This document shows positions 50,162 to 54,666 of a stretch of DNA of 64,000 nucleotides, one piece after another; the first letter of the stretch is position 1, and the number at the start of each line of letters is the position of its first letter. The notes under the pieces are model-generated. The model saw nothing but the letters and a program-made list of their open reading frames with translations, searched no databases and had not been told where the DNA came from. This DNA comes from Rhodospirillaceae bacterium SYSU D60007 (lineage in GTDB: Bacteria; Pseudomonadota; Alphaproteobacteria; Reyranellales; Reyranellaceae), in NCBI GenBank assembly GCA_003574685.1, contig QOCQ01000006.1, forward strand, positions 124,001 through 188,000, in the 5' to 3' direction. A program made the position numbers and the translations under genes.

Positions 50162-52876
50162 ATGGAAAAGAACCTGTTCAAATACATCTGGCGGCACAGC
50201 CGCCACGAGCAGCTCATCATCCTGCTGCTGGTGGTGGTGGCGCAGGTCTTTTATTTCGCCTCCCTGAACCTGCCCAAGGCGATCGTCAACGACGGCATCG
50301 AAGGCAAGGCGTTCCAAAATCAGGCCGAAGTGCCGTTTCTGCGTCTTAGCGTACCGGTCCCCGCGTTCGTGTCGGAGTCCGGCTCGGTTACGCTGTTCGA
50401 GGGCATCCCGCTGACGCAATGGCCGTACCTGGTTGGCATGAGCTGCCTGTTCCTGGTGATGGTCACTGTGAACGGGCTCTTCAAGAAGACGATCAACACC
50501 CAGAAGGGCCGCATGGGCGAGCGCATGCTGCGGCGCCTGCGCTACGAGCTCTATGACCGCATCCTGCTGTTCCCCAGCGCGCATTTTCGCAAGGTCAAGG
50601 CGGCCGAGCTCAGCGGCATGATCAAGGACGAGGTGGAGCCGCTGGGCGGCTTCATCGGCGATGCCTACGTGCAGCCGGCCTTTCTCGGCGGCCAGGCGCT
50701 GACGGCGCTACTCTTCATCATGCTGCAGAGCGTCTGGCTGGGCATGGTGGTGATTGCCGTGCTGGCCGTGCAGGCGTTCATCATACCGCGCCTGCGCCGG
50801 CGCATCCTCGTTCTCTCCCGCCAGCGACAGATCACGGCACGCCAGCTCGCCGGCCGCATCGCCGAGTCGGTCGATGGTATCCACGAGCTGCACACCAATG
50901 CCACCACCAACTACGAGCGCGCCGATATCGTGCAGCGCCTGGGAACAATCTTCAAAATCCGCTTCGAGCTCTTCCAGCGCAAGTTCACTGCCAAGTTCCT
51001 CAACAACCTGTTGGCCCAGACCACGCCCTTCATGATCTATCTGATCGGCGGCTATCTGGTGCTGTTCGGCGACATGCAGATCGGCAGCGTGGTGGGCGTC
51101 CTGCTGGCCTACAAGGACCTGCCCGGTCCGGTGAAGGAGCTGATCGACTGGGACCAGCAGCGCCAGGACGTGCAGCAGAAATACGAGCAGGTCGCCGAGC
51201 AGTTCGAGCCCGATGGCATGTTGGCCCGCGAGCTGCAAGTCGTGCCCGACGGGCCGCTCGCGCCACTCTCCGGCGAGGTTGTGCTCTCGAACGTCACCGT
51301 CGCCGAAGACGGTGGCGCAAAACCGATCGACGGGGTGAGCCTCGCCGCGCCGCTGGGCCGGCGGGTGGCGCTGGTGGGCCCGCCGGGCGGCGGCAAGGAA
51401 GTCGTGACGCAGGTGATCGCGCGGCTGGTACGGCCCTCTGGCGGGACAGTGCGGATCGGGGATGCCGATCTCGCGAACCTGCCGGAGGCGGTCAGCGGCG
51501 CGCGTATCTCCTATGTCGGGCAGGACGTCTATCTGTTCCCCGTCAGCGTGCGCGACAACATTCTCTATGGCCTGAAGCGGCGGCCCCTGAAACCGGCCGT
51601 GTACGAGGGGGCGGCGCAACGCGAATGGGGGCGTTTCTTCGCCGAAGCGCGGCGCGCCGGCAATCCTGAACTGGATGCCGGCGCCGACTGGATCGACTAC
51701 GAGGCGGCCGGTGCGTCGGGAGCAGAAGACATTGACCAGCGCATCATCGAGGTGTTGCGCGTCGTCGAGATAGACGAGGACATCTACCAGTTCGGGCTGC
51801 GCGGCACGATCGATGCCAAAGCGCGGCCGGCCGTCGCCCGATCGATCCTGCTGGCGCGCGACGAGCTGCACGCAAGGCTCGCCGATCCGGCGCTGTCGGC
51901 GCTGGTCGAACCGTTCGACCGGGCGCGCTACAATCGCAACATGTCGGTCGCCGAGAATCTGCTGTTCGGCGTGCCGATCGACAAGACGTTCGATCCTGAC
52001 AATATCGCCGCCAATCCGCATATCCGCGCGGCGCTGGAGCGCGTCGGGCTCACTGACGACCTGCTGCAGATGGGCGCCAGCATCGCGGAGACCATGGTCG
52101 AGCTGTTCGCCGACCTGCCGGCTGGCCATCCGTTCTTCGAGCAGTTCAGCTTCATCGCGGCCGAGGATCTGCCGGACTTCCGCACCATTCTCACGCGGCT
52201 TGCCGGCCGGAGTCTCGCCGATCTCGATGCGGCGGCACGTGCCCGGCTGGCGGCCCTGCCGTTCCGCTACATCGAGGCGCGCCATCGCCTGGGATTGATC
52301 GACACCGCGATGGAAGAGCGGTTGCTCGCGGCCCGGCGGGCCTTCGCCGAGAACCTGCCGGCCGAGGATGCGGACGCCATCGAGTTCTACGACCGGCACA
52401 GCTACAACAGTGCCGCGACGCTGCAGGACAACATTCTGTTTGGCCGCATCGTTTATGGGCAGGCGCAGGGGCCGCAGCGCATCAGTGCGCTGATTGCCGA
52501 AGTGCTGGAGGGGCTCGGCCTGCGCACGGCGGTGATCGAGGTCGGGCTGGACTACAATGTCGGCGTGGCCGGCAAGCGCCTGTCCGCCGCCCAGCGTCAG
52601 AAGGTGGGTCTGGCGCGGGCGCTGGTGAAACGGCCGGACCTGCTGGTGCTGAACGAGGCCACGGCGCTGTTCGACAACGCGGCGCAGCAGCGGCTGCTGG
52701 ATACCATCCTGGAAGCCTGCAAGGGGCGCGGCGTGATCTGGGCGCTGAGCCGCGCTAATCTTGCCGACCGGTTTGACCAGGTGATCGTGCTTCAGGGCGG
52801 CAGGGTGGCAGCCAGGGGCGCACCGGAGGAGTTGTCCGCGGACAAGACTTTTGCCGACCTGCTGGCGGCGGGCTGA
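50162..52876 (+). CDS. ABC exporter-like membrane protein with degenerate ATPase motifs and a large internal insertion
   Basis: 904 residues from ATG 50162. Residues 1-330 form an exporter-type membrane domain (hydrophobic segments from LIILLLVVVAQVFYF on, with a periplasmic loop of about 55 residues after the first). The ATPase follows but its motifs are altered: Walker A is GPPGGGKE (406-413; Lys kept, Ser/Thr replaced by Glu), Walker B ends LLVLNEAT (Asp to Asn at 831, Glu832 kept), the signature is LSAAQ (807-811) instead of LSGGQ, and WALSRANLAD has no H-loop His. Between Q-loop (YVGQD) and signature there are about 345 residues instead of about 60, with three DNI-type motifs at 461-470, 594-603 and 752-761. 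Likely low or no ATP turnover; possibly a sensor or regulated transporter. Followed 18 bases later by a cyclic-nucleotide-binding gene. Confidence 0.85.
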   Translation: MEKNLFKYIWRHSRHEQLIILLLVVVAQVFYFASLNLPKAIVNDGIEGKAFQNQAEVPFLRLSVPVPAFVSESGSVTLFEGIPLTQWPYLVGMSCLFLVMVTVNGLFKKTINTQKGRMGERMLRRLRYELYDRILLFPSAHFRKVKAAELSGMIKDEVEPLGGFIGDAYVQPAFLGGQALTALLFIMLQSVWLGMVVIAVLAVQAFIIPRLRRRILVLSRQRQITARQLAGRIAESVDGIHELHTNATTNYERADIVQRLGTIFKIRFELFQRKFTAKFLNNLLAQTTPFMIYLIGGYLVLFGDMQIGSVVGVLLAYKDLPGPVKELIDWDQQRQDVQQKYEQVAEQFEPDGMLARELQVVPDGPLAPLSGEVVLSNVTVAEDGGAKPIDGVSLAAPLGRRVALVGPPGGGKEVVTQVIARLVRPSGGTVRIGDADLANLPEAVSGARISYVGQDVYLFPVSVRDNILYGLKRRPLKPAVYEGAAQREWGRFFAEARRAGNPELDAGADWIDYEAAGASGAEDIDQRIIEVLRVVEIDEDIYQFGLRGTIDAKARPAVARSILLARDELHARLADPALSALVEPFDRARYNRNMSVAENLLFGVPIDKTFDPDNIAANPHIRAALERVGLTDDLLQMGASIAETMVELFADLPAGHPFFEQFSFIAAEDLPDFRTILTRLAGRSLADLDAAARARLAALPFRYIEARHRLGLIDTAMEERLLAARRAFAENLPAEDADAIEFYDRHSYNSAATLQDNILFGRIVYGQAQGPQRISALIAEVLEGLGLRTAVIEVGLDYNVGVAGKRLSAAQRQKVGLARALVKRPDLLVLNEATALFDNAAQQRLLDTILEACKGRGVIWALSRANLADRFDQVIVLQGGRVAARGAPEELSADKTFADLLAAG

Positions 52877-52894
52877 GCTCGCGAGGAGAATCTC

Positions 52895-53341
52895 ATGAGC
52901 ATCCACGAGGAAGTCGAGCTGCTGAAGACCGTGCCGATCTTCTCCAAGATCGAGCCGGCGAAACTGAAGCTTCTGGCGTTCACCAGCGAGCGGCTGACCT
53001 TCGAGCCGGGCCAGGAAGTGTTCCACCAGGGAGACGTCGGGGATGCCATGTACGTCATCCTGGGCGGCTCGGCCGACGTGATCATCGAGTCGCCGGCGGG
53101 GCCCATCAAGGTGGCGGAGCTGCAGCGCAACGGCTTCGTCGGCGAAACCGCCATCCTGTGCGACATGCCGCGCAATGCCACCATCAGGGCGCATGAGCGG
53201 CTGACGGCGCTGAAGATCCCCAAGGAGATGCTGTTTCAGTTGATCGACCAGTTTCCGCAGGTGGCGATCGAGATGATGCGCGAGCTGGCACACCGCGTGG
53301 AGGACATGAACGTCAAGCTGCGCGAAGCCCGCGCCGCGTAG
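52895..53341 (+). CDS. Cyclic-nucleotide-binding domain protein
   Basis: 148 residues consisting almost only of one CRP/cNMP-type beta-roll: LLKTVPIFSKIEPAKLKLLAF, FEPGQEVFHQGDVGDAMYVILGGSADVII, and FVGETAILCDMPRNATIRA at the phosphate-binding cassette (Glu and Arg present). There is no DNA-binding helix-turn-helix and no kinase domain, only a C-terminal helix (RELAHRVEDMNVKLREA). It starts 18 bases after the ABC-like gene with a GAGGAG site, so the two are one transcription unit; it is probably a separate ligand-sensing subunit for that protein. Confidence 0.88.
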   Translation: MSIHEEVELLKTVPIFSKIEPAKLKLLAFTSERLTFEPGQEVFHQGDVGDAMYVILGGSADVIIESPAGPIKVAELQRNGFVGETAILCDMPRNATIRAHERLTALKIPKEMLFQLIDQFPQVAIEMMRELAHRVEDMNVKLREARAA

Positions 53342-53367
53342 AGGCAGGGAGTGCGGCCGAAGAACAA

Positions 53368-53506
53368 CCTTCCCCCGGAGGGGGAAGGTGCCCGAAGGGC
53401 GGAAGGGGGATGTCCCAACCCGCTCGGCGTTTCGTCTTTGACGCCGTGCTTGTTGAGGCATCCCCCTTCCGGCGCTGGCGCGCCACCTTCCCCCTCCGGG
53501 GGAAGG
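53368..53506. repeat. 139-bp palindromic intergenic element, copy A
   Basis: Outer arms CCTTCCCCCGGAGGGGGAAGG and its near-complement at the right end, inner arms GGAAGGGGGATG / CATCCCCCTTCC, and a central part of about 50 bp. The centre matches the reverse complement of the element at 58416-58555. Occupies nearly the whole gap between the cyclic-nucleotide-binding gene and the VOC/hydrolase fusion; the fusion frame is open through it, but its ATG lies beyond the repeat. Confidence 0.85.
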
Positions 53507-53520
53507 AAAGGACGGCGGCC

Positions 53521-54666
53521 ATGACCGAGCTGCCGGCGGCTGCGCTGCGGGGGCCGTCGGGGTATGCCGGCGTGGCGGTGGGGGTGGCGGATCTCGCGGC
53601 ATCGGTCGCCTTTCACCGGCAGTGGCTGCCGCTGCTGGGCTTCCGCCGCGTCGGCAGCGATGAGCAGCGCACGCTTTTCATGCGGCGCTACGATCACCTG
53701 ATGCTGCGCCAGATGGCGGACGCGCGGCCGCAGCCAGGCGGCATTACGATCGCGCTTGCAGCCGATAGCCGCGCGCAGGTCGACCAGGTGTACGAGCGGC
53801 TTGTGGAGCTTGGCGCGGACATTCTGAATCCTCCCAAGGAACAGGCTTACTTCGCGCCGGGCTACTATTCCTGTGCGGTGCGCACGCCCGACGGGCTGCG
53901 CTTCGACATCGTGCACCGCTGGACCGATTTGCCGGAGATCGCCGGCGCGGAGCGGGTACGTCTGGAAGGTGCTGATGGCGTCCCTTTGGGCGGCTATCTG
54001 TTCAGGCCCGAGGCCGGCAAGCCGCCCTATCCGGCGCTGGTGCTGCTGCACGGCTTCGGCCGCAACGCCTGGACGGAGCGGCATCTGGCCGAGCTGGCGG
54101 CCGCCTCCGGTTACAAGGTGCTGGTGCTGGCCTTGCGCGGCTGGCTGGGCTCGGAAGGCGACAGCGATCAGGGCCTGCGCCAGCCCGATGACGTCGTCGC
54201 CGCCATCGACTGGCTCCGCCGGTTGCCCTCCGTCGATCCCGGGCGGATCGGCCTGATCGGCGCCTCGATGGGTGGCCAGGTAGCGCTGCTGGCGGCCGCG
54301 CGACGGCCGGCGATCCGCTGCGTGGCGGCGCTGTTCCCGCCGACCGACCTGGAGCAGTGGTATCTCGCCAACCCCCACATGCAGCCTTACCTCGACGACC
54401 TCGACAATGCGGCCGGTCTGCGAGCACGCTCGCCGGTCCATCATGTGGACGAGATCGAGGCCCCGGTGCTGCTGATGCACGGCGATGCCGACGAGAACGT
54501 CCCGCTTGAGCAGAGCCTGCGCATGACGGAGACGCTGCGCGCGGCCGGCAAGGAGGCGGAACTGCTGATCGTATCGGGCGCCAGCCACTTCTTCTCGGTG
54601 CGGGAGAACGCCATCGCCCGCCAGAGCCTGTTCGCCTTCCTGCGCCAGCACCTGGGCCGACGCTAG
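53521..54666 (+). CDS. Fusion of a VOC (glyoxalase-like) domain and an alpha/beta hydrolase
   Basis: 381 residues from ATG 53521. Residues 10-135 are a VOC domain: GVAVGVADLAASVAFHRQWLPLLGF, and ending TPDGLRFDIVHRW, with candidate metal ligands. Residues 150-381 are an alpha/beta hydrolase of the dienelactone hydrolase/prolyl oligopeptidase kind: LVLLHGFGRNAW, nucleophile Ser in IGLIGASMGGQVALL, acid in LLMHGDADENVPLEQ, and His in GASHFFSVRENA. All triad members are visible. A two-step lactone or ester-degrading function is possible but unproven. Single gene; GGAAGG lies some 15 bases upstream, partly in the repeat. Confidence 0.88.
   Translation: MTELPAAALRGPSGYAGVAVGVADLAASVAFHRQWLPLLGFRRVGSDEQRTLFMRRYDHLMLRQMADARPQPGGITIALAADSRAQVDQVYERLVELGADILNPPKEQAYFAPGYYSCAVRTPDGLRFDIVHRWTDLPEIAGAERVRLEGADGVPLGGYLFRPEAGKPPYPALVLLHGFGRNAWTERHLAELAAASGYKVLVLALRGWLGSEGDSDQGLRQPDDVVAAIDWLRRLPSVDPGRIGLIGASMGGQVALLAAARRPAIRCVAALFPPTDLEQWYLANPHMQPYLDDLDNAAGLRARSPVHHVDEIEAPVLLMHGDADENVPLEQSLRMTETLRAAGKEAELLIVSGASHFFSVRENAIARQSLFAFLRQHLGRR

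Follow-up and report, generated by a model that had tools for sequence, protein, structure and literature searches.

In the current view, ABC exporters are machines driven by ATP, and one may ask what remains of such a machine when its ATPase has lost the residues of catalysis. This question is raised by a gene in the window analysed here, i.e., a stretch of 64,000 nucleotides from Rhodospirillaceae bacterium SYSU D60007 (contig QOCQ01000006.1, positions 124,001 to 188,000 of the forward strand). The gene product, termed here the pseudo-exporter, is composed of the following parts:

50162..52876, plus strand: pseudo-ABC exporter gene, 904 aa (open frame; ATG start kept in homologues)
50162..51196, plus strand: exporter transmembrane domain, residues 1-345 (Pfam PF00664, AlphaFold2 model, fold matches, entropy)
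51377..51400, plus strand: degenerate Walker A GPPGGGKE, residues 406-413, Ser/Thr replaced by Glu (sequence, homologue alignment)
52580..52594, plus strand: degenerate signature LSAAQ, residues 807-811 (sequence, alignment)
52640..52657, plus strand: degenerate Walker B LLVLNE, residues 827-832, Asp replaced by Asn, Glu retained (sequence, alignment)
52748..52750, plus strand: H-loop position, Ser863, no His (sequence, alignment)

The nucleotide-binding domain (NBD) is fused to the exporter transmembrane domain, which is the architecture of type I (type IV-fold) exporters. Pfam places ABC_membrane (PF00664) at residues 20-313 with 52.7 bits and detects ABC_tran (PF00005) with 66.7 bits, the ATPase being recovered by Pfam and phmmer as two separate pieces. 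The catalytic features of type I exporters, namely Walker A, the Walker B Asp-Glu pair, the signature and the H-loop His, are not found in canonical form in the window protein. The first-pass annotation had listed these substitutions together with the remaining Lys412 and Glu832, and the sequence bears out each of them: G406-PPGGG-K412-E413 in Walker A, L807-SAAQ in the signature, L827-LVL-N831-E832 in Walker B and no His in the H-loop. Canonical paralogues and half-exporters with normal motifs are encoded in the same genome, e.g., L082 with GPSGAGKTT, LSGGQ, LLLDEAT and VAHRL. An open frame of 964 codons runs antisense to the exporter gene (window 50708-53602, minus strand); no evidence for a real gene was found in this frame, which is probably a shadow of GC-rich coding DNA.

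Are these losses a property of one gene or of a family? Eighty relatives with identity from 83 to 47% came out of a scan of genome contigs, and the pseudo-exporter is present, nearly always in a single copy, in 98 of 289 alphaproteobacterial genomes, i.e., in about one third of the sample, which rules out a single-copy oddity. At the level of the phylum 31 of 398 genomes matched, all within the class Alphaproteobacteria, and the named genera of plasmid-borne members are likewise all alphaproteobacterial; homologues include RHE_RS24195 on plasmid p42e of Rhizobium etli and one on pSymB of S. meliloti. None of the papers covered by the literature search describes the family, and the database name of its genes, "ABC transporter ATP-binding protein", is probably misleading.

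Homologues with standard motifs, which would have made the window gene a single degraded copy as the first-pass annotation allowed, were sought in an alignment of 140 sequences, and none carries all seven canonical features. The same annotation had proposed to follow Glu413, Asn831 and the missing His: position 413 is Asp or Glu in 122/140 (Ser or Thr in 3/140), position 831 is Asn in 104/140 (Asp in 14/140), and at position 863 the His is gone in 113/140 and present in 27/140. The signature residues Ser808 and Gly810 occur together in five homologues, with the signature Ser changed to Pro in 50/140, and the Q-loop Gln is found in 73/140. Lys412 is retained in 107 homologues and replaced in 33 (Arg in 28), which gives Lys or Arg in 135/140, and Glu832 is present in 93/140. 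The combination of Lys, Ser/Thr, Asp and Glu is seen in one homologue of the 140, L126 (L126:4941-8252, plus strand; genome G267), which has Walker A GSSDSGKS and Walker B VVDE and is fused to a cyclic-nucleotide domain. L126 has no H-loop His and its signature is degenerate; its near-canonical ATP-binding residues could be retained ancestry or a reversion. Divergent paralogues of about 1000-1050 aa, up to three per genome, were also observed (L129, L130 and L132 in G154, L131 in G022), and in these most divergent members Walker A is no longer recognisable. The ATPase of Rhodobacterales-type members does not exceed the cut-off for recognition by Pfam. The ATPase of the family thus appears to lack the chemistry for normal ATP hydrolysis.

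Residues that persist could still serve an unusual chemistry, in that the protein would be an ATP-driven glycan exporter with atypical catalysis, performing slow and regulated hydrolysis with a cyclic-nucleotide protein as the brake. The basic residue at 412, the frequent Glu832, the RQK that is conserved after the signature across homologues and the complete NBD fold all agree with such an enzyme. We nevertheless regard it as unlikely, since no member holds the canonical set, Pro often takes the place of the signature Ser, the Walker A acid is expected to clash with Mg-phosphate, the H-loop His is mostly lost and the Lys itself is gone in the most divergent members.

The pattern of selection was examined as well. 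With the NG86 method, at synonymous distances of 0.56-0.83, dN/dS is 0.13-0.18 between the window gene and its three closest relatives (83% identity) and 0.11-0.14 among those three relatives themselves. The intact frame without signs of decay, which had been noted from the sequence, is therefore matched by purifying selection (0.11-0.18 overall). Loss of catalytic residues is what a decaying pseudogene would show, but the frame is open in nearly all homologues, invariant residues lie outside the active site and 98 of 289 genomes carry the gene, so that decay is rejected as next to impossible. Mean identity to the window protein, calculated over 72 homologues, is 66.3% in the membrane domain and 53.9% in the ATPase core, whereas in canonical exporters, a small control of two usable pairs, the order is reversed (52.7 vs 66.8 and 45.1 vs 56.4, membrane vs ATPase). 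For distant homologues, in the 40-50% band, the gap narrows to 45.0 in the membrane domain vs 43.4 in the ATPase core. Because the canonical order is inverted, selection is considered to act chiefly on the membrane domain and, within the ATPase, on positions without a catalytic role, and this inversion also speaks against atypical catalysis. The view of a selected pseudo-ATPase with an exporter membrane domain, already put forward in the first-pass annotation, is strengthened by these data together with the family-wide loss of motifs.

What, then, is conserved in a domain that seems to have given up catalysis? The AlphaFold2 model of the window protein is a full exporter (mean pLDDT 81.7, pTM 0.74) and matches exporter structures with Z of 28-30, SUR2B being among the fold matches. 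The modelled ATPase aligns with the ComA NBD over 238 of 239 residues (Z 30.1, rmsd 2.0). Entropy marks residues 115-175 (ICL1) and 321-345 as the best-conserved stretches of the transmembrane domain. The ATPase is split by a large insertion, and the following elements were delineated around it:

51497..51586, plus strand: Q-loop module 1, residues 446-475, ISYVGQDVYLFPVSVRDNILYG (profile comparison)
51587..52531, plus strand: insertion of about 315 residues, 476-790, from the Q-loop module to the signature (Pfam/phmmer split, model, aligned homologues)
51929..51973, plus strand: motif of module copy 2, YNRNMSVAENLLFGV, residues 590-604, Asn599 in 140/140 (alignment, profile comparison)
52400..52444, plus strand: motif of module copy 3, SYNSAATLQDNILFG, residues 747-761, Asn757 and Gly761 in 140/140 (alignment, profile comparison)

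The insertion holds two further copies of an "SVxDNILFG" Q-loop module; in module 1 the motif, SVRDNILYG, follows the Q-loop and lies around residues 461-470. Profile comparison of the modules gave E-values of 5.1e-14 (copy 2 vs 3), 9.7e-7 (1 vs 2) and 2e-5 (1 vs 3), with scores of 76.0, 42.7 and 30.9, respectively, vs 19 at most in 40 column shuffles each. Asn466 of module 1 is retained in 138/140, Arg566 and Arg725, at equivalent places of copies 2 and 3, are invariant in 140, and the Asn, Gly and Phe of the two further copies vary less than the catalytic residues. The corresponding stretch of canonical exporters adjoins the groove which receives the coupling helices; therefore, the repeated modules are likely to serve coupling or docking.

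The gene that follows the exporter gene offers a candidate for the signal:

52895..53341, plus strand: stand-alone cyclic-nucleotide-binding-domain protein of 148 aa, termed here the partner (PF00027, E 4.7e-19; synteny, model)
53138..53185, plus strand: ligand (phosphate-binding) cassette of the partner, VGETAILCDMPRNATI (conservation in 136 sequences)

The partner gene starts 18 nt downstream of the exporter gene and is preceded by a GAGGAG ribosome site. Its product scores 68.6 bits for cNMP_binding (PF00027; cut-off 27.5), and this is the only Pfam domain found in the 148 aa, with no C-terminal helix-turn-helix of the Crp/Fnr type; the name "Crp/Fnr family transcriptional regulator", given in one record, is probably misleading. 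Of 149 loci, 127 have the partner as the same-strand neighbour of the exporter gene and eight have it fused to the exporter C-terminus, i.e., it is adjacent or fused in 135/149; among the other 14, several are truncated at contig ends or have the partner in an overlapping frame. Other neighbours in the window, aroE, Maf and the VOC/alpha-beta hydrolase genes, were rejected as partners, as they were not seen to recur beside the exporter in distant loci. The ligand cassette is intact: Gly83 and Arg93 are present in 136/136 and Glu84 in 123/136 (Asp in 11), and the residue after Arg93 is Thr in 120/136 and Asn in the window copy. The partner model (pLDDT 85) matches the folds of PKG with cGMP and of CRP/GlxR with cAMP, and PKG and PKA are among the best profile matches. 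Thr after the Arg is the PKG residue and is associated with cGMP selectivity, hence cGMP is a possible ligand for most partner members. Sinorhizobium Clr is described as a receptor for both cAMP and cGMP (PMC10127613). The cNMP domain of the HetC exporter binds ppGpp (PMC10986499), which is a further candidate ligand.

Natural single-gene fusions are found in RefSeq in Azospirillum sp. B510 (WP_012978118) and two Ruegeria strains, with cNMP_binding at 51-61 bits, ABC_membrane at 68-84 and ABC_tran at 21-26 (cut-off 25). In these three the cyclic-nucleotide domain appears to persist as the ATPase fades, and an ABC_tran match at or below the cut-off is a further point against atypical catalysis; the fusions L125 and L126 retain ABC_tran at 43-47 bits. 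The fusions bear also on whether the protein is the degenerate half of a heterodimer, for which an unlinked canonical half-transporter would supply a working ATP site. Many heterodimeric type I exporters have a degenerate site (PMC7756269), and several canonical half-exporters are available in the window genome. Yet, fusion to a cyclic-nucleotide domain points to a unit complete in itself, the pseudo-exporter has no recurrent canonical exporter gene as a neighbour over more than 100 loci, and Walker A, Walker B and the signature of the protein itself are all degenerate, so that both composite sites would be hit; a heterodimer half is accordingly quite improbable.

Which process could such a pair serve? 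At most loci a cluster of two to four glycosyltransferases lies upstream, usually divergent, and contains a GT-A protein (YSHDxMGLGHLRRC), GT-B and GT-C proteins (GT4 type) and a GT28-like protein, often with a histidine phosphatase, an annotated polysaccharide deacetylase, a methyltransferase and a YejABEF-like ABC importer. The importer (fused ATPase, 635-aa binding protein and two permeases) repeatedly adjoins the glycosyltransferase cluster, e.g., at L193:619-4700, L194:11817-17798 and L204-L210. The GT-A proteins form a glycosyltransferase-like family for which Pfam gives no match and NCBIfam hardly any (e.g., L156:3364-4572, minus strand; L203:11783-13072, plus strand). Among 289 genomes GT-A is present in 93, the pseudo-exporter in 98 and both in 91 (Fisher p 7e-64, uncorrected for ancestry). 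The two are adjacent in 63 of the 91 genomes and non-adjacent in 28, the window genome included (G000:C14), in which the glycosyltransferases, of which GT-A and GT-B alone were detected, lie on a different contig.

The glycosyltransferase link is a point for an ATP-driven exporter with atypical catalysis, as such products usually need one, and by the same token a dead ATPase in this setting would be odd if the pseudo-exporter were the glycan exporter, because glycan exporters are normally ATP-driven. In G087 and G200 an orthologue of the partner stands beside GT-A, away from the exporter gene (G087:C239:2231-2674 and G200:C58:2699-3142). The partner was also observed beside GT-A at L210:6811-7272, in a genome with a fused copy elsewhere. 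That the partner can adjoin glycosyltransferases instead of the exporter would suit a membrane scaffold or sensor which recruits glycosyltransferases and switches them on cyclic nucleotide without any transport, and so would the better conservation of membrane domain, repeated modules and partner than of the catalytic site. A scaffold, however, would not need the whole transmembrane fold of an exporter with its coupling loops conserved, and we consider a role without transport improbable.

The source of the cyclic nucleotide was considered in the same genomes. A class III cyclase is encoded in 97 of 98 carriers of the pseudo-exporter vs 91 of 191 non-carriers (ancestry uncorrected), these cyclases being common in Alphaproteobacteria (188/289 genomes). 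G108, the only carrier that has none, is listed with a completeness of 100% and is also without the partner gene. About 2 kb past the exporter match in G228 there is a cyclase domain, and at a Mesorhizobium locus a cyclase gene is within 6 kb of the partner gene. A DUF3095 gene (L191:11615-12778, plus strand) and, at some distance from it, an adenylate/guanylate cyclase gene were observed in a Mesorhizobium plasmid neighbourhood of the pseudo-exporter, and the 5.3-Mb window genome encodes 29 class III nucleotide cyclase domains.

Taken broadly, the reading that we favour, with moderate confidence, is a hydrolysis-deficient gate or regulator on the exporter fold, set by cyclic nucleotide and serving an envelope glycan; our confidence is lower for any specific substrate or for a channel over a regulator. 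The pseudo-exporter would form a homodimer and would pass through no ATP-driven cycle. Its membrane domain may be a gate or a conformational partner for an envelope glycan, or for its lipid-linked precursor, which the linked glycosyltransferases would produce. What was once the ATPase would be a docking and transmission scaffold, in which the repeated Q-loop modules touch both the partner and the coupling helices. When cAMP or cGMP binds to it, the partner would switch the pseudo-exporter from one state to another in place of ATP binding and hydrolysis, and the signal would travel from the partner through the former ATPase and the coupling helices to the membrane domain. Against this reading stand Lys412 in 107/140 and Glu832 in 93/140, and L126 with GKS and DE, with which ATP binding or slow hydrolysis is conceivable. 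The role of a sensor or gated channel proposed in the first-pass annotation is possible, and its selected pseudo-ATPase stands; what has to be amended is the mode of action, as a cyclic nucleotide, acting via the partner domain in a glycan setting, is the probable signal. Nucleotide binding, which that annotation held to be probable, is less secure, in view of the 33/140 members with a replaced Walker A Lys and of the Rhodobacterales-type ATPases at the edge of Pfam recognition. The split of the ATPase by about 315 residues, the partner and the glycosyltransferase link were all absent from that first reading.

To our knowledge, bacterial cyclic-nucleotide targets beyond transcription are few. 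If the favoured reading is true, an exporter fold can run on a second messenger in place of ATP, and cyclic-nucleotide signalling is tied to the envelope glycan in alphaproteobacteria, rhizobial symbionts among them. It is a tentative proposal, which we hold with some doubt, that the family is a new class, i.e., a cyclic-nucleotide-gated membrane gate that derives from a dead ABC exporter, has its Q-loop module in triplicate and controls the secretion of an alphaproteobacterial envelope glycan.

How does the pseudo-exporter compare with known systems? It shares transmembrane and nucleotide-binding folds with type I exporters (MsbA, ComA, TmrAB and relatives), ComA being the best match of the NBD fold and MsbA the best NCBIfam match, although the window protein reaches only 175.6 bits of the 602 set as cut-off for the MsbA lipid A exporter (TIGR02203). 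It differs from them in that all catalytic motifs are degenerate, 315 residues are inserted and the Q-loop module is triplicated. CFTR and SUR are examples in which the ABC exporter fold works as a channel or regulator and not as a pump; each retains one ATP site or more and neither is under the control of a cyclic-nucleotide-binding domain. Their likeness to the role proposed here is a functional resemblance only. Degenerate-site exporters, i.e., TAP, TmrAB, TM287/288, Pdr5 and ABCB11, also have changes in Walker B, signature and H-loop, within a conserved nucleotide site, and retain one canonical site per transporter (PMC7756269), whereas a homodimer of the pseudo-exporter would have none. 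The Wzm-Wzt O-antigen exporter is likewise an ABC protein of a glycan pathway and, unlike the pseudo-exporter, forms an ATP-driven channel from separate subunits (PMC6379404). Among exporters that bear a cyclic-nucleotide domain the closest precedent is HetC of Nostoc, in which this domain is N-terminal, binds ppGpp and is needed for function, a C39 peptidase is present and the ATPase catalytic residue is essential in vivo (PMC10986499). In the pseudo-exporter, by contrast, the domain is separate or C-terminal, the Pfam scan of the window protein found no C39 peptidase domain of the HetC/PCAT kind, and the ATPase is dead as far as its sequence tells. The family is homologous to type I exporters yet, judged by its motifs, lacks the catalytic features of the active ones, and the principle by which it is controlled is possibly new.
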